From Selaginella tamariscina (Eukaryota > Streptophyta > Lycopodiopsida > Selaginellales > Selaginellaceae): 64,000 nucleotides of DNA. The translations under genes and the position numbers were made by a program. Shown one piece after another: positions 19,412 through 62,788 of the stretch. The notes under the pieces were generated by a model, which worked only from the letters and a program-made list of their open reading frames with translations, was not told where the DNA came from and did not search any database. The first letter of the stretch is position 1. Every line of letters begins with the position of its first letter. The DNA lies in assembly GCA_003024785.1 (NCBI GenBank), contig PUQB01000307.1, positions 231,675-295,674 on the forward strand, written 5' to 3'.

Positions 19412-19437
19412 ATGCAAGTTGTAACTAAAATGGGCAT
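19412..19437. repeat. left terminal inverted repeat
   Basis: ATGCAAGTTGTAACTAAA followed by ATGGGCATG. It pairs with the inverted right end with a single A/G difference. A related left end recurs at 62256. Confidence 0.85.
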
Positions 19438-19916
19438 GGCTATAGTCCCATTTCCTAATAATTAGCAATTTTAGCTATTTAATTAGCATTTTCTAATATT
19501 AAAGGAATATTCTTTAGAATATATGTTTGAAAAGAGAATATTCTTTAGAATATTCTATTTTGTATTCTACCCTTTAATAAATTATAGCATTCATTGAACA
19601 AAAATTAATAACATTATAAAAGTAGAATGTATTAAATTATATAATATATTGCCTAATATAACAATTAAGGAAGAGCATAAGAGGTACATTATATAAATAT
19701 TGATGTTGTTATTAAAATATTAATATTTAAATATAACATTATTAATTAAAAATTTGTAGTAGTAATAATATATATATAAAATCCTATAATAATATAGTCA
19801 ATCTTCCATATCATTTTTTAAATTTATATAGTTAAGTATACAATTTGGTACTATTATTAAAGAGTTTATAATAATTATGAATATTAAATATATGATTTTA
19901 TAATTTTGTAATTGCT
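19438..19916. other. AT-rich left subterminal region
   Basis: Very AT-rich, with repeated GAATATTCTTTAGAATAT words. Homologous to 62282-62785 of the truncated relative. It ends at the stop of the transposase gene and probably serves as transposase-recognition DNA and 3' UTR (inference). Confidence 0.6.
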
Positions 19917-22900
19917 TTAAGCTTCAGAAAACATACATTCCCTTGCAGTTTTGTTAATCGTGACTTTATCAACGCTTCTTGACATCCACCCATATCGAAT
20001 GGATTTAACATTTATAAAACATGCTGGGTCTTTTTGATTGGGAGACCATGTTTTCTCTAGGCATCCATTATATCTTTCGCTCTCCTTCTCGTGTCGCCTT
20101 TTTTGTGGTTTGAACCATGCAACCTTAACAATACTATTTTTTGTGATTACTTCAGGTGTGTCGATAATTTGACCCATCCAAATAGGCTGATTATATGACG
20201 CATCTGGAGTAATGAGAACCATCATTAGTTTTTGAAGATCCTTGCAGCAATCAAAGTATGCTTTAGGTTTTTGGTTCCTTTGTCCAACAAAGTGTGGGGT
20301 TTGCACTTCCACATCACTACTGGCTTCTATGTCGTCTATGCTCAGTGATGTCATTTCAATCTCCTCTCGCCACCTTGTTTTAGGCCAGAAAGGGTGTTGC
20401 AATTCTGTACTTGTGACAGTAGGCCCTTCCAACTCTCGAACAACAGTCTCCCAATAGTTGACCACATGCTTATATAGTTCTGAGTAACCAGTTGCCTTAT
20501 CAGAATTCTTTGGCATCGATTTTTGAACCCATGCCACATTTTTTTGATGCCATCAATAATAACCTCTTGTTCCTTGAGCTGGGCACTCAATGGAATAGGG
20601 TCTGGTTGTCCTTCTGGGAGAAGTGGCTTTCCATCCTCTCCACTTTTGAAGAGCATTAAGCCCTCTTTCGGTAACCACTCCTGCTCTGATGGCCGTAACT
20701 TGTACTGCATAATAGGTATACCATCTCGTATGGAGAAAAAGAATTGTAGCGGCACAAGGTGACCAACTAAAGAATCACTCCCTTCTTTTATATACTCCTT
20801 GAGAAATTTTTTGAAGTCTGGCACCTCAGTCACAAGCAAAGCACAACTTTTTTTGGAGATGCAATTTTCAAAAAGATTCATCATATGCGGTAAGGTAAGT
20901 GCACTTGTCCTTTTTGTAGAGTTGGAGACCTTGCTGAAGAACGCATCAATATCTTCATGAGTGTGACCAACCATAAGGAAACTGAGCGTGATTGTTTCAA
21001 ACACACCTTTGGCAACAAGCATTGACAAGTATGCTAGCACATATCTAGAAAATAAAAGTAAGTATGAGCTTGAGAAACCCTTAAGTAAAATGATTTACCT
21101 ATTTTTGTTCTCGCCTGCACAATTATCCATCTGTAAAAGCAAATGACGAGGAAGCTTATTTGATGTTGAGGACACATGTACACTATTTGAGCTAGATCCC
21201 TCCACTGAACCTGAACTCTCAACAGGGCCATCTGTTTTTTGTGCAGGTTGCTGACAATGCCTCTCATATTCCCAAGTAGCCTCAAGTGCAGACGTGTTCA
21301 TGAGAGCATTATGTAAAGGTTGAAGGTGTTGTTTCTTCACTTTGAGATCACTGATAGGACTTGTCTGTGAGTGGGCTTCAAGGTTTCTGAAACACATGGC
21401 TAACGACCCAATAGTGAAATTGGAGTCGCTAGACCAATGTGGAAGTGAAAAGTGTCCATATGACTCACAACCGTGTCCATGTGTTAGCACACCTGTTAAA
21501 GAAATCGGAAGTTTCATGACATTTCCAAGGCACTTTGGTGTTGCAAAGAGCTTTGGAATGCTGGTCTTTGAATGATCCATCTTGTCATGGATCAAGCACA
21601 GGTACTCTGATGGGCGTGATACAGAAAGCATGCGGTGTGCATAGTACTGAGACCGACAAGTTTGTTGTGCAATCATGTGGGCCTCCATCTTCCTTTGAAT
21701 GGTAGTGATCTCCACCAAGGTTTTTGCACAAGCCTCTGCAGCCTTCAATGATGTACAAGTGTCACACTTAGAAAAGCTAGAGTGTTTTGCAATCTCCACA
21801 TCCTTAAAATGAGTATTCCATATGTTGTTGAAGGTACCAGTGCAGATTGCTTGGAGCCCCATCAAACTGAGGCACTTGTTCACATGTTCACACAGTTTCA
21901 ATTGAGTGTAGATTGAAGGTAAAACCTTGAGATTTTCCCTGACCCCTGCATTTGTGGTTCGGCATTTGTGAGGCATCCTGTCTGCATTTGCTTCCACAAA
22001 AGCCTTGAGTATCTCTATGGCTGCCATGATGTGAGAGCGGGTTTTGACCAAGCCAGTGTTCCCATGAACTGAGGTTCGCGCTCCATCTAGCCACTCATCC
22101 CTCCGACGGTAGAACGTGGTCTTTGGGATCCCGTATATACTGTACCAAGCTTTGAAGCAGATGGCCACCTTATTAAATACCATGGATGTACTCTGATAAC
22201 CTGTGTCCGAGGCCATTCCATCAATACACCCAGTTAGTGCAGCATATACAAACTCATGCCTTTGCTTTTGGGTGAGCATACGAAAGACATGTCTACATTG
22301 GGTAATTTCATTCCGGTCTGCCATCTGACAACACTTCTTCTTGCAACAGTCAATCGTGGAAATGCTCGTAACACTTTCGGAAGATGTAGGATCCATCTTT
22401 ACCCTCTTGCTGAAACTTGCAGGGGAAGATCTACAACCCATGAATCGCCTTTTTCTTACAATAGGACCAATGCAAGGAACCTCTTCAAATATGAGTTGTT
22501 CTTCCGGGTTGTTATTATTGAAATCCAACCCAGAATATGTTGAACCATCTTGCCGTCTTAATTCAGATGTTCGCCACCTCACGAGGGATCCAGGATACAA
22601 TGTGCCATTAGGTGAAACCTCTGTCACAACTACACCCACGAAGTCGGACCCTAGTTTCTCTTCTGACACTGCTTCCATTGGATTTATAGCTGTGATGATG
22701 CCTCTTCCGACTTCAATCTCACGAAGAAAGAGAATCACCTCATCCATTACAGCAGGCAAGCCATCATCTGGTAAACTCGTGCTACTATTTGTTTGTGACT
22801 CTGCATATTTTGTGTCAGCCTTGACTTCATCCAAATTCCACAATACAGGAGAACCCTCCTCAAATTCCATTCCCAGAACCTCAACATGCTTGAAAATGGT

Positions 22901-23047
22901 GTTCACCCATACGTACACACAAGATCCTTGGGAAATATTGTGACATGATGCATTATTATCTCGAACTTCCACAGTTCCAGTGCCAACTATCTCGTTGTTC
23001 CGAAGAAGACATACTTTATCTCCAGTATTAAACATATTGTCCTGCAC
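19917..23047 (-). CDS. DUF7869-like DDE transposase (two exons visible, one frameshift)
   Basis: Probable transposase of the element, ~1,020 codons. Exon I is 21099-23047, intron 21045-21098 (54 bases, GT-AG, phase kept), and exon II runs from 21044 to the stop at 19917. Exon II has a one-base loss in a run of seven A (20539-20545) that breaks the frame. Order of features: N-terminal module starting FNTGDKVCLLR, a Cys cluster (CCKKKCCQ, residues ~220-230), a helical region, HDKMDHSK, QMDNCAGENKN spanning the intron, and VGHTHEDIDAFFS. The spaced D...D...D/E residues fit an RNase H-fold nuclease. The last two motifs are what I know from DUF7869-type proteins in transposons of plants and other eukaryotes. 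The 5' end is uncertain: a splice-acceptor-like TGCAG lies at the 23047 edge and the first in-frame ATG is at about 23035. It may be inactive in this copy unless the homopolymer is a base-calling error. Confidence 0.8.
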
Positions 23048-23189
23048 ATAAATAATTGTATTATTTATGATATCTGTTTATGCAATATTTTTAAGAAATC
23101 TGAATTACGGTTACTTAATAATATGCATATGCAATAATACATAATTATGTTTAGAGATAATATCTCATGTTTGATTAATACAACTGATG

Positions 23190-24097
23190 GGCGGGATTAA
23201 TCCCGCCACGAATCCCTCCGACGAGGAACGGTCGGCGGGATTAATCCGCCGCCGACTCAACCCCTTCGGAGAGAGTCGGCGGGATTAATCCCGCCTTGGA
23301 CTCCCTCCGACAAGGAAGAGCCGGCGGGATTAATCCCGCCGCCTCTTCCTCCTCGGGGGGAGTCCGGCGGGATTAATCCCGCCGACTCTCTCCGACGAGG
23401 AAGGGAGTCCGGCGGGATTAATCCCGCCGCCGACTCAACCCCTTCGGAGAGAGTCGGCGGGATTAATCCCGCCTTGGACTCCCTCCGACAAGGAAGAGCC
23501 GGCGGGATTAATCCCGCCTCTTCCTCCTCGGGGGAGTCCGGCGGGATTAATCCCGCCGACTCTCTCCGACGAGGAAGGGAGTCCGGCGGGATTAATCCCG
23601 CCGACTCATCCTCGCCGGAGAGAGTCGGCGGGATTAATCCCGCCGGACTCCCTTCCTCGTCGGAGGAAGAGGCGGCGGGATTAATCCCGCCGGCTCTTCC
23701 TTGTCGGAGGGAGTCCAAGGCGGGATTAATCCCGCCCACAATTCTTACGACGGGGAATGGGTGGCGGGATTAAACCCGCACATAACTCTCTCCAAAACTA
23801 TGATTTCAAAGAGATCTCGGGATAAATCCTGTCCCCAAATCTTTAAAACAGGAAGTGGTGGCGAGATTAATCCCGCCACCCCTTCCCTGCCTCCTAAAAT
23901 GGTTGGCGGGATTAATCCCGCCGACAACTCTTTCTAATAAATTCTGGTAACTCTTCATCAGTTGAGAAGGTTATCGACGGGATTAATCCCGCCACTCTTT
24001 TTCAGTGGCGGAGAAGCATTGCCCGGGAGATGGTGGCGGGATTAATCCCGCCACTTCTTCAAAGAGGCGAAAAAGAAATGGCCGGATTAATCCCGCC
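23190..24097. repeat. palindrome array 1: 19 copies of GGCGGGATTAATCCCGCC
   Basis: Fourteen perfect 18-bp palindromes start at 23190, 23278, 23323, 23366, 23411, 23456, 23501, 23540, 23585, 23627, 23674, 23719, 23905 and 24035. Five near-copies start at 23234, 23763, 23860, 23976 and 24080. Between 23278 and 23736 the period is 39-47 bp, mostly 45. The array starts ~145 bp upstream of the first transposase exon. Each copy holds two CpG. Reading it in frame gives artefact peptides GGINPA/AGLIPP on both strands. Confidence 0.95.
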
Positions 24098-25460
24098 GCC
24101 CCGGTTAACCTAGAATATTAAGTTAAAAGGATATTTAAACGTGATAAATCCCTAACGGAATATATTATAATCCTAATGCATTTCTAAACCCCTAAATTGT
24201 AATTTTAAGAGAGAATGTAAGAGAGTGAATCTTAATAAGTATTTTTAAATTTGTTTATAATACTTACTTGTAAACAGCACTGAAGGCGCCGTGCTTTCCT
24301 ATAAAGAATAGCACCCAATTTAATCTCGCTCCTGAGATGATCACTATGAAGAAAAAAGAAGATCTAAAGAGTGAAAAATACAGAAATGAAGAAACCCTTG
24401 CCGGAGAAAGAACCAGATCTGAATTTGAGTGGGAAATTAAATGCATTTTCAAATTTACATGTCAGACCGACAATACATATGTCAGAAATTCAAATTTTTT
24501 AAAAAGAACAGAAAATAAAATTTAAGATGAGTTGACACAAATATCCGACACTCTGACATATATACTCTCCAGTTCCAATGAGTATTTTAAAATTGCATTT
24601 AATGTTATTCAAGTGATTCAAGCTGTTTAATATTACGAAATTTTAGACTATATTCTACATTCTTAGTATTCAAGTATATTATATTATATATATATATAAA
24701 TATATACTTATACAATAAATAAATTGATATATTATTATGTATCATTTAAAATATATTCATAGTCTGTTTATTATTATTATTTTCTTAATTACTCGAGTTT
24801 AGTTTTCATTTCCTAGTATCAATGGGATATTCTTTAATATTTTATTAATATTTGAAGAATATTCTAATATTAAACCTGATTATCATAATTAAATTAGTCT
24901 TGTTCTTAATTATTGCAGTAATTATTCTACATTTGTATATATTAATGGGATTTTCTCAATTAATTTGTTATTATTTCAAGAATATTCATGTGTTAAACCT
25001 TATTATCAATATTAAATTAATACACACTATGAACATATTTTAAATTATACATAATAATACATCATTTTATCTAATATATAGTCATATATAGTTTTAATAA
25101 TATATATATTAATATCATTTCCTTAATTACTTGAGTAATTAATCTTCTTTATATTAATGGGATATTCTTTATTATTTTCTTATTATTCCAAGAATATTCC
25201 AATATTAAACATGATTATGATAATTAATTTAGTTAATTATTTGAGTACTTAATTTACATTTGTATATATTAATGGGATTTTCTCAATTAATTTCTTATTA
25301 TTTCAAGAATATTTCAATGTTAAACCTTTTTATCAATATTAAATTAATATATATTATTAAAACTATATATGGCTATATATTAGATAAAATCATATATTAT
25401 TATGTATAATTTAAAATATGTTCCTAGTGTGTTTATTAATTTTATTTTCTTAATTATTCG
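24098..25460. other. AT-rich spacer with ~80-bp imperfect repeats
   Basis: No gene. From about 24820 to 25345 a segment like AATGGGATATTCTTTATTAT ... TATTCCAATATTAAAC recurs about four times. The open frames here are AT-rich chance frames. Confidence 0.6.
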
Positions 25461-25696
25461 ATGTTTGTTTTGCACACATATATAAACACAATCATAAATT
25501 TACACACGCATTACAAGAACTTACAAAAACACATATGCACACACATGCACAACCCTAAACCAAACTGAAGAAATAGGTTGCTTCTTTATTGAAAACATCA
25601 TGTTCAACGCATGTATGATATATGTACTCAATCTGTGTGACTGTATGTAACACATTGAATTTACATGTGTAATATTTATATTAAGCTTGTTGGGAG

Positions 25697-25726
25697 CAAA
25701 CCCTAAACCCTAAACCCTAAACCCTA
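25697..25726 (-). repeat. interstitial telomere repeat (CCCTAAA), four units
   Basis: Four tandem AACCCTA units, the plant-type telomere sequence, inside the transposon's non-coding centre. Confidence 0.9.
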
Positions 25727-26165
25727 ATATGTAACACAATGAATTTACTCATGTAATATGTATGTATGTCTGTGTGTATACACGTGTGCATGTATATATG
25801 TGTACTCTGTATGTATATATGTGTACTTTCTGTCTTCTCTCATACATACACACCATGCATGATCCATGTTAATATGTACTGTCTCTCTTCTCTCAAACAT
25901 ACACACCATGCATGATCTATAATATGTACTCGGTCTCTCTAATATTATGTACTAATATGTATGTATGTCTGTGTGTATAATACACACCATGCATGATCCA
26001 TTAATATGTACTGTCTCTCTTCTCTCATATACTATGTATGTATATCTGTGTATAATATGTGTAAGTATATATGTGTACTAATATATGCAATGTGTACAAA
26101 AATAATTTTTCAACACTCTCTCTTCTCTCATACATACACACCATGCATGATCCATCCTAAATCCA

Positions 26166-26192
26166 AAACCCTAAACCCTAAACCCTAAACCC
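26166..26192 (-). repeat. interstitial telomere repeat (CCCTAAA), about four units
   Basis: AAACCCT in tandem, flanked by the same TATGTGTGTATGTCTGTG context as the first tract, so the two tracts probably share a duplicated segment. Confidence 0.9.
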
Positions 26193-26569
26193 ATGTAATA
26201 TGTGTGTATGTCTGTGTGTATACACGTGTGTATGTATATATTATGTGTATTAATATATGCAATGTATGTATGTATTGATACACATGAAACTTTAACACTC
26301 TCATGGACACACACATGTTAAATCCCTGCATGATTTATATTTTTGAGGTGTATGTGATACACCCACGCACACGCACGCGCTAATAATATAAAAAGAATAT
26401 TCGTTTAGGGCGAATCTATATTTTATTCTTTTTAGGGTTTAAGTATATTCTCAGAAGGAATATTCTATTAGGGTTGATATATATATTTAATTCCTTTAGG
26501 GTTTAGGTATATTCTTAGGGTTTCAAGAGGCGGCGGCTGTGAAATCGGCGGCGGCGGCTGTGCACACAG

Positions 26570-26860
26570 GTGAGATCTGTGTGTGTGTGTGTGTGTATGT
26601 ATGTATATATGTATAGGAGTGTGCGTATAATTTATTTATTAGTTTTATCTCTCGCACACACACGCACACTCCTGTGTATGTATATGTGTGTGTGGGTGTG
26701 TGTTTGTTTATCTGTATGATTTTATTTGTTTCGCTCACACACGCATACACACGATATACATACACATATATATATATACCTATATACATATATACATACA
26801 TATATTATGTGTACCAGTATCTGTAAATTTTTTTTATTGATCTTGCTTTACACACACACA

Positions 26861-26906
<46 letters not shown>

Positions 26907-26971
26907 TATGTGTACCAGTATCTGTAAATTTTTTTTTATTGATCTATCTCTCCCACACACACGCGCACTGC

Positions 26972-27014
<43 letters not shown>

Positions 27015-27665
27015 TATATTACAACACTAGTTTATATATATGCTTATATATTCATATGGGTTATATATCTATATACACACATATATATATGTGTGTGTTT
27101 TCTGTATAATTTTATTTATTATTAGTTTTATCTCTCGCACACACACGCACACTCCTGTGTATGTATATGTGTGTGTGTGTGTGTTTGTTTATCTGTATGA
27201 TTTTATTTGTTTCGCTCACACACGCATACACACAATATACATATACACATATATATACCTATATACATATATACATACATACAACACTAGTTTATATATA
27301 TGCTTATATATTCACAGACTCTCTCTCTTTCTCTATAGATTATATATCTATATACACACATATATATGTGTGTGTTTATCTGTATAATTTTATTTATTTA
27401 TTAGTTTTATCTTTCGCACACACACGCACACTCCTGTGTATATATATGTGTGTGTGTGTTTGTTTATCTGTATGATTTTATTTGTTTCGCTCACACGCAT
27501 ACACACGATATACATATACACACATATATATACCTATGTACACATATATTAGGTGTACCAGTACTGTATAATTTTATTTATTTATCTATCTCTTGCACAC
27601 ACACGTACACTCCTATACATACATATATATACACACACATATATATATGTGTGTGTTTTTATCTC
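26570..27665. repeat. composite CA/TA/GT repeats in ~280-450-bp modules
   Basis: A compound module is repeated about three times (from about 26640, 27110 and 27390). It consists of TTAGTTTTATCTCTCGCACA, a CA run, (GT)n, TTTGTTTATCTGTATGATTT, TTCGCTCACAC and TA-rich words. All open frames here are repeat artefacts (Tyr/His/Ile/Thr-rich). Confidence 0.85.
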
Positions 27666-27681
27666 GCTAAGCCCCTCGAGC

Positions 27682-29154
27682 GGCGGGATTAATCCCGCGC
27701 TATATAGTTGGGGCCATGGCGGCGGGATTAATCCGCCGCCGAGGCCCTTCAGGCAGGTATGGCGGCGGGATTAATCCCGCCGCTCTACGACAAACCGAAG
27801 AGCGGCGGGATTAATCCCGCCGCCATGGCCTGCGTGAGGGGCCTCGGCGGCGGGATTAATCCCGCCGCTCATCCATGCCTGCGCGGAATGCGGCGGGATT
27901 TATCTCGCCGGCAATGGCCTGTGTGAAGGTTCTAATGGGCGGGATTAATCCCGCCGGATTCCGCGCAGGGCATTTAGAGGGAATGGGCGGCGGGATTAAT
28001 CCCGCCGCGAGGCCCTCACGAGGCCATGGGCGGCGGGATTAATCCCGCCGCCTTCGGTTTGTCGTAGAGCGGCGGGATTAATCCCGCCGCCCAGGGAATT
28101 CACGCAGGACATGAACGCCGGGATTAATCCGGCCCCACGCTCATGCCCTTCGCGAGGGCGGCGGGATTAATCCCGCCGTTCATGTCCTGCGTGAATTCCC
28201 TGGGCGGCGGGATTAATCCCGCCCCCACCCATCCTGTTCAAAAATGCCGCAGCCAATATATATATGTGAGCGCATGATTTACGAGGGCGGCGGGATTAGC
28301 CGCCGAACCTTCATTACCCGTGGCGAGATTAATCTCCGAACCTTCATTATCCCTTGGTATGTTGAATCAATCCCGCCTAACTCTGTCTGAGACGGAGAAG
28401 GTTTACAAAATACCAATGGAGGGAACCGAGAAGGGTGTGGATTAATTTCACATCCCTTACATGGTGGGCGGGATTAATCCCGCCGTGTACGCATGCCCTG
28501 CGCGGAATCAGGCGGGATTATCCCGCCGCCATTGGCCTGCCTGAAGGGCCTAGGCGGCGGGATTAATCCCGCAAGATTTCGCACAGGGCCTGGGAGGCGG
28601 GATTCATCCCGCCGAACGCCAATGCCCTGTGCAAATCGGGCGGGATTTATCCCGCCGCCATTGGCCTGCCTGAAGTGCCTAGGCGGCGGAATTAATCCCG
28701 CCCGATTCCGCGCAGGGAATTGGCGTCCGGAGGATTAATCCGCCGCATAGGGATCGAGTGAAGGCCCTGGGCGGCGGGATTAATCCCGCCGAGTCTTCAA
28801 TGCCTGTTGGAGAAATGAATCTCGCCCCCTTCCCTTTTCCTCCATTGGTGAGTTGGACCATCCCAAACGTTTCTGTCTAAGACGTAGAAGGTTTACAACA
28901 TACCAATGGAGGGGACTGGGAAGGGTGGCGAGATTCATTTAACCATCCCTTACATGGTGGGCGAGATTAATCCCGCCTCCTTTCTGGAGTCACTGAAGGG
29001 GTGTGAGAAATAAATCCTGCCCAGTTCTCTCTGAGACCGAGAAGGGTGGCAAGATTAATTCCGCACTCCCGTTCAAGGCCTCCAGAAAGGTGGCGAGATT
29101 AATCCCGCCCACTCTTTCAGGAGGCATTGAAGGGGTGGCGAGATTAATCCCGCC
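27682..29154. repeat. palindrome array 2: about 27 copies of GGCGGGATTAATCCCGCC
   Basis: Eleven perfect copies start at 27764, 27804, 27849, 27938, 27989, 28032, 28071, 28160, 28206, 28467 and 28773. Some sixteen near-copies, usually one or two changes, lie at 27682, 27721, 27892, ~28116, ~28289, 28511, 28556, 28596, 28639, 28685, ~28729, 28960, ~29048, 29092, 29137 and similar. The spacers are GC-rich and different from those of array 1. The array ends ~345 bp before the start codon of the ParB/methylase-like gene. Its right third is more decayed (GGCGAGATTAATC forms). Confidence 0.95.
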
Positions 29155-29270
29155 GCACCTTCCATGTGAATATATATGTGTATTAGTATATATAAGTTGC
29201 ATATCTCATTTTATTTACTTTTATCATCTTATCATAATATTTCGAGTAAAAGCTAGGAATCTATGTAAAA

Positions 29271-29353
29271 CTGTCCAGAGCTCACATTTGTGGTGGTTCT
29301 AAAACGAAATGTTATCTTTCTTTTGCACTAACACAAATGTGAGCTTCGGACAG
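29271..29353. promoter_or_regulatory. 22-bp inverted repeat (hairpin) upstream of the ParB/methylase-like gene
   Basis: CTGTCCAGAGCTCACATTTG(TG) at 29271-29292 pairs with 29332-29353, with two mismatched positions and a 39-base loop. It ends ~145 bp before the start codon at 29499, so it lies in the promoter or 5' leader. Function unknown. Confidence 0.7.
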
Positions 29354-29498
29354 TTAATTACGTCTACTTCTCTCTGTGTATTATTTTTGTATATTCGGGT
29401 TTATACAAGTGTGTGTGCGTTTTTATATATTTGTATATTTATAGTGTATTATTTTGCAGAAGGACGATTTGATCAAACAAGGAGATCGAGTCATTAGT

Positions 29499-32400
29499 AT
29501 GGAGTCGTCGTCAAATTCTGGGTAAGAATTAAAATAAAATCTGTTATACTCGGATACTTGAACTAATCATTTTTGTATTCAGATGTGGAATTGAAGTGAC
29601 ATTAAAGACAAGAGCAGGAGAAGAGATGGGCAGGGGGATTTTGGAATCAACTTGGCCATATTTTAAGATAAATGGGAAGCGCATTGGAGCAACCATGGTT
29701 GCTGTCAAATTAACCTCTGTCACATCTCATGGACAAGCAAAACAATGGAAAGTTGATTCGCTAGTCAAGCACCCGAAAGCAGGCTGCGAACCCAGATTGG
29801 ACGATGCTCGACAGATATGCCTTGTTCCATCCAATGTCACGTTCTCGGATCCAGAGGTCGTCAGTTACAACATTAATCTCGGGTGGTTTGTCGACTTGTG
29901 GATAATGATGTTCACGTGTTCACTAATGATGTTGACCTTGGAGTTCTTCTTCAACTCAACGAAAGCCCATCTATGGAGGGGATCCATCTGGATGTCTACT
30001 TCGAAGATCTTCAGACTCATCGAGTAGGTGTATTGTCAGGAGATATTGTTTCACAATACAGAAAATCAGCAAGTGGAGCAATCTTCCCTCTTGACATTGA
30101 AGAAGAACACAGCGACATCATAAGGGAGATTGAGAAGGTGGCTCGGTCTCAGGTTCTCTACAGATCACGTTCAATTTGCTTAGGAAGCTTCGGGAGCTGG
30201 AGGAGTGTGCCGAGAACACTAGAACAGCTGCAGTCGGGGATCACACATGTTGATTCGGATCGCAAAAGAAAATCATCAATCGTTTTGTCAGCTGCACCTG
30301 TGGCATCTCATGCTGCAATAAGTCACAAGGAAATGATGTTGGATGATAAGATTTATCCTTGTAGGGTTAAATATTGCAGCGTCAACCCAAACTTCAATTA
30401 CAGGCCACTCAACCAGGAACGTGTAGCTGAGCTCATGGAGAAGATGAAGGACGACAATTCTTATACCGTTCCACATAATGCTGTTTTGTGTCCATACTAT
30501 GAAAGAAGGAAGGGTGCTGACAAAGTCTGGATCACAACACCAGAACAACTCATGAAGATTCAGACGGAGAATAAAAGATCTATCAAGTACTACATCATTA
30601 GTGGCCAGCACACAATAACGGCAGCCCAACGACTTCTCGATGAACACAACAAAGGAACGATGGCAACAAAACTTTCCGAGCATACCCGTGAGAAGCTGAC
30701 AAAAAGATCGGCGTTTTTAGCTAAGCCGAATCTCACAATCGAGCAGTACCATAAGTTATCGGCGGAATGGGACGCTGCCGACACCAACCACTACAACAGC
30801 AAAATATGGGAGAAGTTTAAACACACGCGAGCCGTGTGGGAATCTCTTCAGCGACCACAAAGAGCTACCGCAGGGAATACACAATCTGCGGAATACCGGG
30901 TAAGCAAATTGTTTGGGCGGGATTTATCTCGCCGGTATATTAATCTGTCTTTTTCCTCAGAGAGTTGAAGAAATTGCAGCAGTTGATTTTGCCCAGGTGG
31001 GCGGGAAGGAAACATCATTTCTGATGTTGATTTCTTGCCCCGAAGATAGGATCTTTGCCAAATGGTTGGGGATTATGGAATCCTTTTCAAAAGGAACACT
31101 GAAGAAGAAGCAGACAAGTGAAGGGGAGCCCTCAGAAAAGTCTGCAAAGAAACCCAGTAAGACGCCGAAGGCTAAGTCTGTTCAATCTACAAAGGATGTA
31201 GACAACGATTTCAAGCTCACATGGTTGAAGCCTTTAAATGGAACAACGATGGAGGAGATGGAAGTCTTGGCTGATTTGGTGATCGATGGCAAACTACAAA
31301 TTAATAACAGCAGCCCAACCTCTCCTTTTCATCTCAAGGCAATGGAGTTGAAGACGGTCAGGCATTTCAAGGAGTGGTTGGGAATACACTGCCACAAACT
31401 GGGTTGGACCTCGACTTCAACATATGAAGAGGTTAGCAAATATTTGCATGTGACGAACGATGATATGCTTGTCGAATGGGTGAACCAATCGGAAGATCTA
31501 GGCAAGAATCTATTGCACGCCAACGCCAAAAAGGAGAACATTGGGATGACGCCTTCTCTTATGGCAGTCCTTCAGCAGCGGAGAACCGAATTGAACCTTA
31601 TAAAGGAGGATGCTACGAATCACGACAAGCCCTACAGATGTTTGTTGTTAGATTCAGACTTTATGGGGTAACATCACTGCTTGTAGGAAACCGTTTCAAT
31701 TGTTCGTGATGGATCGGCGGGTGTCAAAAAATCTTTCGACAGATAGGGCACTAGAGGATCTGGTGGAGAAACTTAGCCGTGCAAGCATATACATAGAAGG
31801 TATTTATTATTGAATTCATGCTTGCGCTCTTCACTGATACCTACTTTTTCAGGTATTTATTTCTTGATTCTTGCTCATGTCACCGATACTTTTGCCTTCG
31901 CCTTCGCCAAGAAGAATAGACATCGTTGGACAGGATTTTATATGAACGATGCTAATCCCAAGTGCATTGATACTGTTGTTCACTTGGTTGTTAGGAATGC
32001 GCCAAACAATTTCAAGCTTCCAAATGACTGGCCAGGCATCTGTTTGCACTCCAACGGCCCTGAACCTCCATCCGATACACCGATAGGTATGAGTGACGTA
32101 TTCGGCAATGTACGTTATCCAAACATTACAAGTCAAGCGGCACGGAGCATCGTCAACTTGATCAGGGGTCCTCACAGTGATGCGTGGGTTTTTGACTACT
32201 GCACTAGGGGGTCCGTCTTGAAGGAGTGTTACCTTCGGCATACATGTGTGTTTGCCGTTGAGAAGGATAAGACCATGGTTGAGGACCTGAACAAGTGGAT
32301 AGATTGGGTCTCAACTGAGTACCCCAACGAATCCATAAAGGCGTATTTGAGAAAGTTCCCTCCAGATAAGTGCGATAGCTCTGAAGGTGAATCTGGTTCA

Positions 32401-32598
32401 ATCTCGGAGTCTGAGAACGAACATCAATCAGATATTAGACCGGAAGTTATCTCGAGGAGTACAGAACATTCGCACACTCCAGGACCCATGGAAACATCAA
32501 TAGAAGATGCAGAAGATCTTGAACCATCTCACAAGCGGCTTAGACCTTCTTCGCCTCATTCAGAAGGTAATAGCGAAGAAGAATTGATAATGAATTGA
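29499..32598 (+). CDS. ParB-like domain + DNA-methyltransferase-like protein (~965 codons, one to two frame problems)
   Basis: Exons: 29499-29521, 29583-30899, 30961-31667, 31687-31799 and 31853-32598. Three introns of 53-61 bases are normal GT-AG with phase kept. The gap 31668-31686 is only 19 bases. A frame change lies near 29877-29895. Near residues 260-360 the pattern is VNPNFNYRPLNQERVAELME ... VPHNAVLCP ... YYIISGQHTITAAQRLL, as in ParB/Srx-type domains (the last motif corresponds to ParB box I/II with G.RR replaced by G-Q-H-T). A basic linker follows in exon 3. The C-terminal part reads VNLIRGP ... AWVFDYCTRGSVLKECYL ... CVFAVEKDK. This resembles motif X/I of beta-class N4/N6 DNA methylases (DPFxGSG ... 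GIE) with the key glycines and proline degraded. No clear DPPY is seen. It ends in an acidic Ser-rich tail with KRLRP. Bacterial and phage proteins with ParB plus methylase are known; here the gene sits in a eukaryotic transposon. Methylase activity is doubtful. Confidence 0.65.
30900..30960 (+). other. intron containing a decayed palindrome copy
   Basis: A 61-base GT-AG intron. Bases 30916-30933 read GGCGGGATTTATCTCGCC, the same two-change variant as the copy at 27892 in array 2. Confidence 0.8.
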
Positions 32599-32959
32599 TA
32601 GAGTGATGAATAGTTGTAAATGAGTGTAACATAAGGCATTTTTGTATATTTCTTTTATATTTGTACAGAAAATAAATTCTCAAGGATTAATGAAGCTTTT
32701 AGTTCAAACATGGGTCACACATTAACAAGGTAAATAATATACCTTGATAATTTTAAGGTCAGCTAATTATCATTTTGCAGATGTAATGAAATAATTGAGA
32801 ACATGGATTTTCAGCATTGCCATGAGGTAAGAGAGGGGTTTGGCGACAATTTCTTGTGCCACATGTCAGAATGACAGAGTTCATGCAGGAAATGGATAAT
32901 AATGCAGCTCAAAACATCGTTACCATGGGGCCACTTCAGTTTTTGCATCATCATTTTTA
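32599..32959. other. spacer between the two forward genes
   Basis: AT-rich 3' region, then a possible short exon at 32803-32826 (ATG start, good GTAAG donor) whose phase does not fit the following phosphatase frame by one base. A TTCAG acceptor lies at 32965-32969. Confidence 0.4.
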
Positions 32960-34046
32960 TTGGCTTCAGTTCCGAAATCAATTTCTTCAGCGCATGCAAT
33001 ATCTGAATCTTGTAAGGATGATGTACAATTAAATGATGAAGGGATAGGCAACGAAATAGTGGCAACGGATAAATGTGAAAGGGAGCAAACAAGTGATTTG
33101 CAAAGTATTCAAGAGGCAACGCTATCTCACGTTACTCATGGCCATATTGTGTTGTTGGATGTCAATGGTGTTCTGCTTCATCGACAAAGGCCCGAGGATA
33201 GAAAAACAGAAATCAAACAAGGAGATTTCATTCCTTGTCATGGTAAATTTCGATATGATATTATTTTTCGTCCAGGGTTGGATCGTCTCTTTCAAAAGCT
33301 TAAGGAGATGGGTGCGCTTGTGGGGATTTGGTCATGCATGCAGATTCATAACTTAACACCGCTGTTGAGTTTACTTAAGAAACATTGTAGTGTTGCAGAA
33401 GAGGTGATTCGTAAAGATTGGATTTTTGACCAGCGAATGTGTTATAAACCTCTCGAATTTCACAATATAAGAAAGGAAAAGCAAGCCATACTTCTTCAAG
33501 AATGAAAGAATAATTGGGACTCATGGGGAGATCAGTCGCTTAAGGATAACGAAGAATGCACATATCTTAGTAGTAGACGACTCTCCTCAGAAGGCTATGC
33601 TCAACCAAAACATTGCTTGTATTCATCCAATCACTTTCGATCCATATTCTGATATCGATATCATGGATGAGCTAGTGAACTACTTGGATACGTGCCTCAG
33701 AAAGAAGAATCTCGAAAATTTTTGTGAGCAGTATCCACCGTATCATACATTTCCTGAAGCTTTTCTTTCTCGTGATATTGAATTTTATAAAATGAAGGAT
33801 AGCAACCGGGCGCTTTATAATATTATTCTTAAGGAACGTCAGTTTTTAGATGAGCCTTTATGCAGACCTTCTCTTATCACATCTTATGTATTAACAAGGA
33901 TGGCAACTCCCAATTGCATTCGTGAGAGTGTTAAGTGGTGGCAACAACATCAAGATATTGACCAAAATGATTTGATTAATCCGGAGAGTGATGATTTAGA
34001 CAAAATGAAAAGATTTCTTTGTATGATAGAAAGAAAGTATTTATAA
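32960..34046 (+). CDS. FCP1/SCP-like HAD phosphatase (frameshifted, 5' end unclear)
   Basis: Reads HIVLLDVNGVLLHR (HAD motif I; D-x-N-G instead of the usual FCP1 D-x-D), then FRPGLDRLFQKLKEMGALVGIWSCM (FCP1 homology region with the motif II serine). After a frame change at ~33469-33482, in a GAAAGGAAAAG run, comes SKPYFFK ... ILVVDDSPQKA, the acidic motif of the family. The C-terminal ~150 residues (33597-34046) are helical and unrecognised. In eukaryotes this family dephosphorylates Ser/Thr in RNA polymerase II tails and other nuclear proteins. There is no in-frame ATG between the stop at 32900 and motif I, so an upstream exon is expected. It is the last gene before the right TIR, in the same orientation as the ParB-like gene. 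Family assignment is good; activity is uncertain, because the second motif I Asp is Asn and the frame is broken. Confidence 0.75.
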
Positions 34047-34308
34047 AAAATTAACATGTTGATAAGAAAATGATTTCATTTGTAATTATGTTTGATAGTA
34101 TTTCTTCATTATTGTAAACTATTTTTAGAATAATATGAATATTCTAAGATATTTTAGGAATATTCCTTACTAAGTAAGGTTATTGAAGGATTAATTAATT
34201 AATTAATTAATATTTAAGGCTTAATTACATATTAATTAAATGATTAATTAATAATTAAAACTTAAGTATTAATTAGTAATTTATTTTATATTCCCATTTT
34301 CACGTATC
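34047..34308. other. AT-rich right subterminal region
   Basis: TTAATTAA-rich, with GAATATTCTAAGATATTTTA words like those of the left subterminal region. No gene. Confidence 0.6.
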
Positions 34309-34334
34309 ATGCCCACTTTAGTTACAACTTGCAT
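34309..34334. repeat. right terminal inverted repeat
   Basis: CATGCCCACTTTAGTTACAA then CTTGCAT, the inverse of 19412-19437 with one mismatch. It is followed by ATAT and the resumed LTR/unit sequence. Confidence 0.85.
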
Positions 34335-62255: not shown

Positions 62256-62788
62256 ATGCATGTTGTAACTAAAATGGGCATGTCTATAATCCATTTTATA
62301 ATAATTAACGATTTTAGTTATTTAATTAGCATTTTCTAATATTAAAGAATATTTTTTAGAATATATATTTAAAGACAAAATATTCTTTAAAATATTTTAT
62401 TTTGTAATTGACTCTTTAATAAATTAATAGCATTCATGGACCAAAAACTAATAAATTATAAAGTAGAAGGTATTAAATTATATATATATTATATTTAAGA
62501 TTGTAAGGGCCTAATATAGAAATTAAGGAAGAACATAATAGGTACATTATATAAATATTGATATTGTTATTAAAATATTAATATTTAAATATAATATTAA
62601 TTAAAATTTGTACTATTAATAATATATATATAATATACAAAATCCTATAATAATATAGTCAATCTTCTATATCTTTTTATAATTTATATAGTTAAGTAAA
62701 CAATTTGGTATTATTATTAAAGAATTTATTATAATTATAAATATTAAATATATGATATTTTATAATTTTGTAATTATTTTTTCAATCT
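62256..62788. mobile_element. truncated left end of a related TIR transposon
   Basis: Begins ATGCATGTTGTAACTAAA, one base off the left TIR of the 14.9-kb element, and follows its subterminal region (19412-19912) with moderate divergence. It stops at the point corresponding to the transposase stop codon. No coding sequence and no right end are seen. Confidence 0.75.

Follow-up and report, generated by a model that had tools for sequence, protein, structure and literature searches.

The palindrome arrays and their question

The window analysed here, by which we mean the whole 64-kb stretch of Selaginella tamariscina DNA, contains two dense arrays of one perfect 18-bp palindrome, and the question that it raises is to what these arrays belong and what, if anything, reads them. 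Arrays A and B (Table 1) together hold 25 exact 18-mers, 14 in A and 11 in B, and when indels are allowed 44, 46 and 49 cores are counted within them at up to 3, 4 and 5 edits, respectively, in agreement with an initial annotation of this DNA that had given about 46 copies in two clusters, 25 of them perfect. Gapless matches with at most 3 mismatches number 42 in the window, against 0.01 expected from 100 dinucleotide shuffles. Chance matches start at 6 edits, where 53 fall inside the arrays and 17 outside, and at up to 5 edits the sole further copy in the window is one of those 17, the lone palindrome at 30916, with 2 mismatches. The 61-bp intron around it is kept, palindrome included, in all seven element copies that have the region. 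This copy, which had been overlooked, lies in the element but past the interval 23190-29154.

Core centres are 39-47 bp apart in 33 of the 36 intervals between clear cores, intervals across decayed cores being left out; a further count gives 188 of 211 but carries little weight, since it was confined to units whose spacers measure 15-35 bp. From the edge of array A to the GTG at 23047 we measured 143 bp, and from that of array B to the ATG at 29499, 345 bp; these distances match the roughly 145 and 345 bp to the transposase and the "ParB-like" gene reported before, and the array ends match as well.

Table 1. Features of the element, in positions of the window
Feature	Position	Strand	Evidence or details
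Whole TIR transposon, 14.9 kb	19413..34333	.	TIR pair; contig C1 has 7 more full-length copies
Left TIR, TGCAAGTTGTAACTAAAATGGGCATG	19413..19438	+	TIR pair; TA ends 7/9 left flanks listed
GAATATTC palindromes	19505..34165	.	Subterminal 19505, 19536, 19548; 34137, 34158; central 24857, 24980, 25192, 26395, 26458
Transposase gene, remaining part (DUF7869 continued; exon boundaries approximate)	19917..21040	-	PF25273 E 1.2e-25 in ORF 20351-21040
Transposase coding exon, ATG at 23035	21101..23041	-	N-terminal region and start of DUF7869; PF25273 E 2.5e-12
Predicted leader intron of transposase gene, encloses array A	23042..24267	-	Splice-site scores and conservation
Array A	23190..24097	.	14 exact 18-mers, ~20 cores with decayed ones, ~45 bp apart
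Predicted 5' leader exon of transposase gene (start uncertain)	24268..24440	-	Donor 24267, region's best; 8/8 copies
Predicted 5' leader exon of plus-strand gene (start uncertain)	26500..26569	+	Donor 26570, region's best
Predicted leader intron of plus-strand gene, encloses array B	26570..29459	+	Acceptor 29460, region's best; 7/7 copies
Array B	27682..29154	.	11 exact 18-mers, ~32 cores with decayed ones
Accessory gene	29499..32598	+	Exons ~29460-29521, 29583-30899, 30961-31799, 31854-32598; two frame breaks in window copy
Lone palindrome, GGCGGGATTTATCTCGCC	30916..30933	.	In 61-bp intron 30900-30960 of plus-strand gene
Third gene, NLI-interacting-factor-like (NIF) phosphatase	32800..34046	+	PF03031 E 4.3e-9
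Right TIR	34308..34333	-	TIR pair; TA starts 7/10 right flanks listed

A high-copy transposon carries the palindrome

The carrier of the palindrome is a young, very abundant DNA transposon with terminal inverted repeats (TIRs). TA is found on both sides of the element in only three of the eight full copies, and the flanks are TA-rich. The NIF phosphatase gene is 97-99% identical in the seven other copies, and Rfam gave no match at gathering scores across the element. A second palindrome, GAATATTC, occurs 10 times in the element, where 0.48 are expected, and nowhere else in the window; the eight element copies have 7-10 each, in the same three places. Because the two ends and the central part of the element are occupied by this different palindrome, the 18-mer presumably need not be a transposition site.

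The whole genome (300.7 Mb) contains 27,128 exact 18-mers, and none of a reversed-pattern control. Stretches of contig C1 that were picked for holding 18-mers, and that therefore speak for sampled places rather than for the whole genome, have 101 exact copies. Of these, 99 are no more than 2 kb from element DNA as located by an element probe with its arrays masked, and the remaining two, up to 2.3 kb away, adjoin an element copy that is diverged and rearranged and whose right end was not found. Six other stretches of 8 kb, picked by coordinate, hold 8 exact 18-mers, all in the two that have an element copy. Wherever sampled, the 18-mer is tied to the element, being in its DNA or at most 2.3 kb from it. 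Nor is it absent from other full copies: array A is present in all eight full copies and array B in all seven that have its region. In other databases the 18-mer was found in one viral stretch and in 49 prokaryote stretches, each of the latter having a single copy or two, with no arrays among the matches listed.

This distribution bears on the possibility that the arrays are read by a host transcription factor that links expression of the element to S phase or to a hormone. Its attraction lies in the half-site GGCGGGA/TCCCGCC, which we take to resemble the E2F core, and in GGATT, which presumably resembles the ARR-B/GARP core, as well as in the predicted position within leader introns (see below). 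The E2F consensus is flanked by TTT/AAA, however, whereas ATT is found here, and a host factor should have sites elsewhere in the genome as well, yet the copies that could be placed are in or near the element. We consider a host factor improbable.

Conserved cores, diverged spacers and turnover of units

The palindrome had been said to be kept while the spacers differ, and this is the case: the spacers of A and B are as unlike as shuffled sequence, and the core differs at about 5% of sites. With decayed cores excluded, which flatters core conservation, and with pairs that are not independent, the 43 listed cores of the window (about 3 edits or fewer) give, over 300 pairs of A against B, 0.053 edits per site in the core and 0.513 in the spacer, the latter against 0.541 ± 0.054 for shuffled spacers. 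Within A, 37 related pairs differ by 0.008 in the core and 0.263 in the spacer, and related pairs within B by 0.067 and 0.224. Across eight copies, where cores of up to 4 edits were admitted, the core difference is 0.062-0.064 in three classes whose mean spacer divergence runs from 0.15 to 0.35, reaches up to 0.097 where spacers are least alike (divergence of at least 0.4), and is 0.083 for A against B.

Turnover of the units proceeds by duplication of blocks, in part with inversion. In the window copy, near-identical spacers (less than 6% divergence) form four pairs in the same orientation and four inverted, and at 6-20% divergence there are three and nine, respectively. Matching spacers (at most 15% divergence) are in the same orientation in 405 cases and inverted in 31 when compared between copies; within one copy the counts are 34 and 14. 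Inverted spacers bounded by palindromes within one copy could bring to mind a site-specific, shufflon-like inversion at the palindromes, but the prevalence of the same orientation, across copies and within them, speaks against it, as does the lack of a recombinase domain among the nine ORFs scanned, and we find this already disfavoured explanation scarcely credible.

One may also consider a passive minisatellite, in which blocks are copied with their ends at palindromes, so that perfect cores propagate and no protein reads them; an 18-bp palindrome would let a copying end re-anneal either way round. In line with this are the block duplications, seen between copies with coding exons about 99% identical, the near-identical spacers in both orientations in the window copy, and the mild self-complementarity of the spacers, whose non-redundant sets have mean z of -1.24 (20 of A) and -1.33 (30 of B). 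The initial annotation had invoked selection or homogenisation on the palindrome, and these duplications, between copies with coding exons about 1% apart, show that homogenisation does also occur. A minisatellite would not account for a core common to both arrays and a regular spacing, given that the spacers of A and B are unrelated, nor for the lone palindrome in the later intron or the lack of 18-mers in the rest of the element. We think it unlikely, although it is the main rival of the binding-site reading. That block copying alone could hold cores alike without selection was counted against a binding-site reading, and the regular spacing, although A and B spacers are unrelated, was counted for it.

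No clear CpG excess, as a sign of hypomethylation, was seen in exons or young cores. Spacer CpG observed/expected ratios (0.69 and 0.56) are similar to those of the flanks (0.60 and 0.63), and CpG decay in cores is higher in the old copy L076 and in the diverged copy b8.

Predicted leader introns and RNA folding

The arrays had been assigned to the two divergent promoters, one at each; the best-scoring, conserved splice sites instead place both of them within predicted 5' leader introns, downstream of the promoters. The top donor/acceptor pairs are 24267/23041 on the minus strand and 26570/29460 on the plus strand, and the chosen sites are conserved in all eight copies on the transposase side and in all seven with the region on the plus-strand side, the donor GTGAGATC of the plus-strand leader among them. 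Since a rival donor-like site at 27757, inside array B, scores nearly as high as the chosen donor (9.9 against 10.3), the placement remains a prediction.

If transcribed, such leader introns might form long hairpins, either to be diced into siRNA or to alter splicing, and the palindromes would then serve pairing. As RNA, array A folds at -708 kcal/mol (a z of -32.9 relative to 20 shuffles). When cores are kept and spacers shuffled, array A has -698.5 against -522.5 ± 6.7 (10 shuffles) and array B -1003.1 against -769.4 ± 7.0 (6 shuffles), and in five other copies array A also folds below its null (6 shuffles each). Selection on the RNA strand was not upheld: the transcribed strand folded better in an uncontrolled comparison (p 0.06 for A and 0.0005 for B), but after control for composition and redundancy these values become 0.67 and 0.95. 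When 14 chosen inverted spacer pairs are paired up, moreover, the opposed mismatches are not mainly G-U (6 of 29, with 3 A-C), and palindromic DNA would fold in this way anyway. RNA structure thus seems to us a rather poor candidate for what the arrays do.

Proteins of the element

The transposase belongs to the DUF7869 family, the sole Pfam family above its own cut-off in the transposase ORFs (47.2 and 90.7 bits, gathering cut-off 26), and it has the HDKMD motif in common with all eight relatives, which are 28-36% identical to it. In their precomputed Pfam annotation PF25273 appears in five of the eight, PF26133 (DUF8039) in four and both in two; no relatives were found in viral contigs. The genome has 7345 candidate transposase exons, and the 68 that were scored are 99-100% identical, all without stops. 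Coding constraint is evident on this gene (exon Ka/Ks < 0.5) and on the accessory gene, where Ka/Ks is 0.18-0.48 for 29883-30901 and 0-0.21 for exon 4, and is below 0.5 in three of the four pieces tested, with values up to 0.59 in the last exon. Pairwise exon comparisons show 0-14 frameshifting gaps yet only 0-1 stops in full copies (3-4 in the diverged b8), so the frame breaks are likely, though not proven, to be assembly indels.

A profile built from the transposase N-terminus picks up the N-terminus of the accessory protein (E 4.4e-6, best shuffle 0.26, in a set of the protein itself and 2000 shuffles), and the two proteins seem to have an N-terminal domain in common. Otherwise no relatives were found among 5.8 billion proteins, in viral contigs, or by sequence in the PDB, and a single tblastn match to phage (E 5) was judged to be chance. 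The libraries tried gave no recognisable DNA-binding domain and no Pfam match above cut-off, and a single-sequence fold model has a pLDDT of 34.5, too low to carry meaning. The label "ParB-like" came from a match by eye and is not backed by the libraries, neither ParB nor a ParB/Srx domain having been found in Pfam, NCBIfam, PHROGs or PDB sequences. A GQHTITAAQRL motif was spotted by eye in the protein. On an unsupported reading of the sequence, the C-terminal half of the protein may derive from a DNA methyltransferase that has degenerated and now serves for binding.

Clustered palindromes that adjoin a gene with this motif could suggest a parS-like partition site, or a centromere-like one, for a ParB protein. 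Given that no ParB match was obtained in the libraries tried and no ParA among the nine ORFs scanned, and that it is hard to see why an integrated element should need partitioning, we regard this as very improbable.

A proposed explanation and known systems

We propose, and give it about an even chance, that the arrays are cis-acting, high-density binding sites for a dimeric protein encoded by the element, similar to the targets of VANC and serving autoregulation and anti-silencing. Such a protein would bind the 18-bp palindrome as a dimer, with one subunit per GGCGGGATT half, and the likeliest binder would be the constrained accessory protein, or else the N-terminal domain seemingly common to it and the transposase. 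Dense sites in non-coding DNA would allow the protein to locate copies of its own element, and once bound within the leader introns it would regulate both genes. Most likely it would activate element copies or maintain their activity, through anti-silencing together with autoregulation.

The VANDAL transposase is of the Mutator type, whereas that of this element is a DUF7869 protein. TIRs of CACTA (En/Spm) elements begin with CACTA and TnpA sites are subterminal and short; the TIRs here have the pattern TGCA[AC]GTTGTAACT instead, and the transposase family differs as well. What recalls En/Spm is the transposase N-terminus, weakly TNP1/EN/SPM-like (E 0.052, below cut-off), and the DUF8039 of four of the eight relatives. 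The maize TnpA, too, is encoded by its element, and it has been linked to the demethylation of that element and to its activation (cited in PMC10398659). VANDAL21 and VANDAL6 of Arabidopsis, with the anti-silencing proteins named VANC, are described as likewise having a dense short motif in non-coding element DNA, introns included, a motif that is rare in other transposons, arrays that grow and shrink fast, and both transposase and accessory genes (PMC5735166, PMC10398659). The VANC21 motifs are found in the non-coding DNA of their element, introns among it (PMC5735166), and in the present element, too, a motif array in non-coding DNA is tied to the element in the places sampled; the VANDAL motif, however, is given as a 9-mer in one orientation, while ours is a perfect 18-bp palindrome. 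Sirevirus LTRs likewise have clustered palindromes in non-coding cis DNA, up to 32 units per element and at CpG-island borders, but the part of the study cited here describes an LTR retrotransposon with short palindromes, mostly with a CGG-CCG core, as against TIRs and DUF7869, and it locates them either within the LTR, upstream of the TATA box, or close to env, and makes no mention of leader introns (PMC2829016). CRISPR arrays are alike in geometry only, having palindromic repeats with spacers of regular length; they were rejected, since spacers here recur and are duplicated in blocks, Pfam shows no Cas domain among nine ORFs, and the carrier is a eukaryotic transposon.

Self-versus-genome discrimination and escape from silencing by transposons have, to our knowledge, been detailed for few families only. 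Here the genome itself supplies 27,128 exact copies of a site that is long and unambiguous, together with many intact transposase exons and element copies of differing age, so that binding, methylation and array turnover are open to direct test. It is possible, if doubtful, that we are looking at a second independent origin of sequence-specific self-recognition in a DNA transposon of plant type, in which the accessory protein of a DUF7869 element, dissimilar to everything in the libraries searched, reads perfect 18-bp palindromes arrayed within leader introns and thereby maintains the activity of its family, thousands of copies strong. If the accessory protein is the binder, transposon superfamilies with no relation to one another would have evolved self-targeting arrays, and the proteins involved would be unrelated too.

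Palindromic arrays and their confinement to the element

An earlier reading of the sequence had reported some 46 copies of an 18-bp palindrome, 25 of them perfect, in two clusters, and our recount agrees with it: GGCGGGATTAATCCCGCC occurs in 25 exact copies in the window, 42 are found when up to 3 mismatches are allowed (vs 0.01 expected), and arrays A and B together hold 46 at up to 4 edits, indels allowed. A single additional 18-mer, missing from the first list, lies further downstream, and beyond these three places the window contains none at up to 5 edits. The median distance between the centres of clear cores (the 18-mers, as distinct from the spacers between them) is 45 bp, with 33 of 36 intervals falling at 39-47 bp when those involving decayed cores are excluded. 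The palindrome arrays are real and strongly non-random.

Features of the element and its surroundings (window coordinates; introns are predicted from best-scoring splice sites)
Feature	Position	Strand	Remarks
Inverted TIRs (TGCAAGTTGTAACTAAA...)	19413 and 34333		
Transposase gene		minus	DUF7869 domain
Transposase leader intron	donor 24267, acceptor 23041	minus	
Array A	23190-24097		
Accessory gene leader intron	donor 26570, acceptor 29460	plus	
Array B	27682-29154		
MicroRNA-precursor-like hairpin	29271-29356		
Accessory gene	29499-32598	plus	initially called ParB-like
Single 18-mer	30916-30933		
Third gene	32800-34046		NIF phosphatase domain (NIF/CTD-phosphatase-like)
Second palindrome GAATATTC	19505-34158		10 sites
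Lone left end of a related element	62257-62775		86% identity over 528 bp; no 18-mers at up to 5 edits

The sequences flanking the element are rich in TA. Among 5.8 billion proteins the transposase has eight relatives at E <= 0.001, 28-36% identical to it, of which precomputed Pfam annotation assigns DUF7869 to five, DUF8039 to four and both to two. The third gene, carried by all eight full copies of the element, is perhaps a captured host gene.

The initial annotation had proposed counting the 18-mer genome-wide and looking for it in other copies of the element. The count gives 27,128 exact 18-mers against 0 for a reversed-pattern control (300.7 Mb, 1391 contigs), in a genome whose CCCTAAA repeats and introns suggest a plant. 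The 100 places listed, all on a single contig (C1), are mostly paired clusters approximately 3.5-4 kb apart, and here we found seven more full-length copies of 11.9-14.8 kb (one of which, b4, includes 2.5 kb of N), which share 93-99% identity with the window's copy in their main coding exons. Array A is present in 8/8 full copies, and array B and the intronic 18-mer in all seven that have the region. The C1 stretches, which were selected for containing 18-mers, hold 101 exact ones. Of these, 99 lie no more than 2 kb from element DNA, as detected with an array-masked probe; two lie slightly further off, at up to 2.3 kb, next to a copy (b8) that is diverged and rearranged and whose right end was not located. 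Six further 8 kb stretches were picked by coordinate; two have element copies, and these carry all eight exact 18-mers. In these sampled places the 18-mer is tied to the element throughout. Outside the plant, one Prevotellaceae MAG has the 18-mer as single copies on a number of its contigs (JAIRUB01, e.g. L013, L022 and L026), often close to contig ends; this is probably an unrelated bacterial palindromic repeat.

The element and its arrays have been recently amplified. In a protein search the transposase exon was 99-100% identical over 650 residues and free of stops in 68 scored copies, these being the best 68 of 7345 first-look candidates. Since the 101 exact 18-mers fall in 10 element copies or fragments on C1, or roughly ten per copy, this one contig leads to an estimate of some two to three thousand element copies for the whole genome. 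Two copies (L061-L064; C1:898959-912564 and 917619-931172) share flanking sequence on both sides, and it is therefore likely that the host segment was duplicated with the element already in place.

Core conservation and turnover of units

As first noted, spacers differ between the clusters while the 18-mer is kept. In the window, for the 43 listed cores (about 3 edits or fewer), array A and B spacers differ by 0.513 edits per site, on a par with shuffled spacers (0.541 +- 0.054), and cores by 0.053 (300 pairs), and related pairs differ by 0.263 in spacer vs 0.008 in core within A (37 pairs) and by 0.224 vs 0.067 within B (15 pairs). When 211 units from all eight copies are compared (cores with no more than 4 edits), the cores differ by 0.040 where spacer divergence is 0.03, by 0.062-0.064 from 0.15 to 0.35 and by 0.097 at 0.52, and by 0.083 for A against B; in all these comparisons decayed cores are excluded and pairs are non-independent. 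Binding sites for a protein of the element are, in our view, the most likely function of the arrays, at about an even chance. The main rival, passive homogenisation of the arrays, seems rather unlikely. Block duplication is seen in the order of units, with BJFF occurring twice in array A of the window and BJF once in that of copy b5, the coding exons of the two being approximately 99% identical. Unit I, at the right of array A, is found in 8/8 copies, and units L M of array B in 7/7. The window's copy has near-identical spacers in both orientations; between different copies, matching spacers agree in orientation in 405 cases and are inverted in 31, which argues against flipping as a fast ongoing switch. 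In an older copy (L076), where long segments are 89-92% identical, only one exact 18-mer is left, and its cores have decayed mostly by C-to-T/G-to-A changes with ATTAAT almost intact, as expected for methylated DNA.

Predicted leader introns

The arrays had been placed at the two divergent promoters of the element. We correct this placement, since the best-scoring splice sites (simple plant matrix) are conserved and put both arrays probably inside leader introns: donor and acceptor of the array A intron are kept in 8/8 copies, and those of the array B intron in all seven with the region. A second-ranked donor of the accessory gene, at 27757, falls within array B (score 9.9 vs 10.3). The lone 18-mer would fall within a further, third intron, and the prediction sets the divergent promoters between the arrays.

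Every array tested forms a large fold-back. The transcribed strand folded better in an initial comparison, but this preference was absent once composition and redundancy were controlled, and thus we see nothing that points to selection for pairing of the RNA. Just past array B, in the same predicted leader intron, is a hairpin resembling a microRNA precursor (-46.8 kcal/mol, z -8.6, fold of 29255-29375), without a match in Rfam. It recurs in all seven copies that have this region, in some of them altered by small indels. Rice miR820 is a transposon-borne miRNA that targets a host silencing gene.

Candidate binding proteins

The name "ParB-like" gained no support, as a test of ParB membership in Pfam, NCBIfam, PHROGs and PDB sequences gave no hit. 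On visual inspection, the accessory protein's C-terminal part (31854-32598) looks like the ...DPFAGSGT... region of beta-class DNA methyltransferases with key residues lost, a likeness that had no support in the domain libraries searched. The Ka/Ks values of the accessory gene, many based on few substitutions, indicate purifying selection: 0-0.29 in the first piece (5 comparisons), 0.18-0.48 in 29883-30901 (6), 0-0.21 in exon 4 (7) and 0.13-0.59 in the last exon (6). The transposase exon gives 0.07-0.33 (6), and the NIF gene, less clear than the others, 0.15-1.16 where defined.

A profile of the transposase N-terminus matches the accessory N-terminus at E 4.4e-6 in a search of the latter itself plus 2000 shuffles (best shuffle 0.26); the window's transposase N-terminus is also weakly TNP1/EN/SPM-like, under the cut-off (E 0.052). 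A domain that both proteins seem to share, together with an array of sites in each gene's predicted leader, suggests joint autoregulation of the two genes. For the site at which the transposase would act on the ends, GAATATTC appears a better candidate than the 18-mer: in the window it occurs exclusively inside the element, in both subterminal regions and the centre, and it occupies the same three places in eight copies.

Comparison with known systems

Neither the 18-mer nor the term DUF7869 was mentioned in the literature searched, and among the matches listed for ParB, transposons and methylation, titles and abstract openings described no such element. Two papers on VANC head the listed matches for anti-silencing, palindromes and tandem repeats, and VANC is the nearest working analogue. 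The VANC21 motif YAGTATTAY forms dense arrays across non-coding sequence of VANDAL21 but is seldom met in other transposons, and fast-changing repeats occupy VANB21 and VANC21 introns as well as sequence upstream of VANA21 (PMC5735166). VANC causes silent marks to be lost (PMC10398659). Sirevirus LTRs contain clusters of palindromic motifs of up to 32 units (PMC2829016). On the features tested we rejected membership of the element in VANDAL or CACTA. By analogy, the Selaginella element may work like these families.
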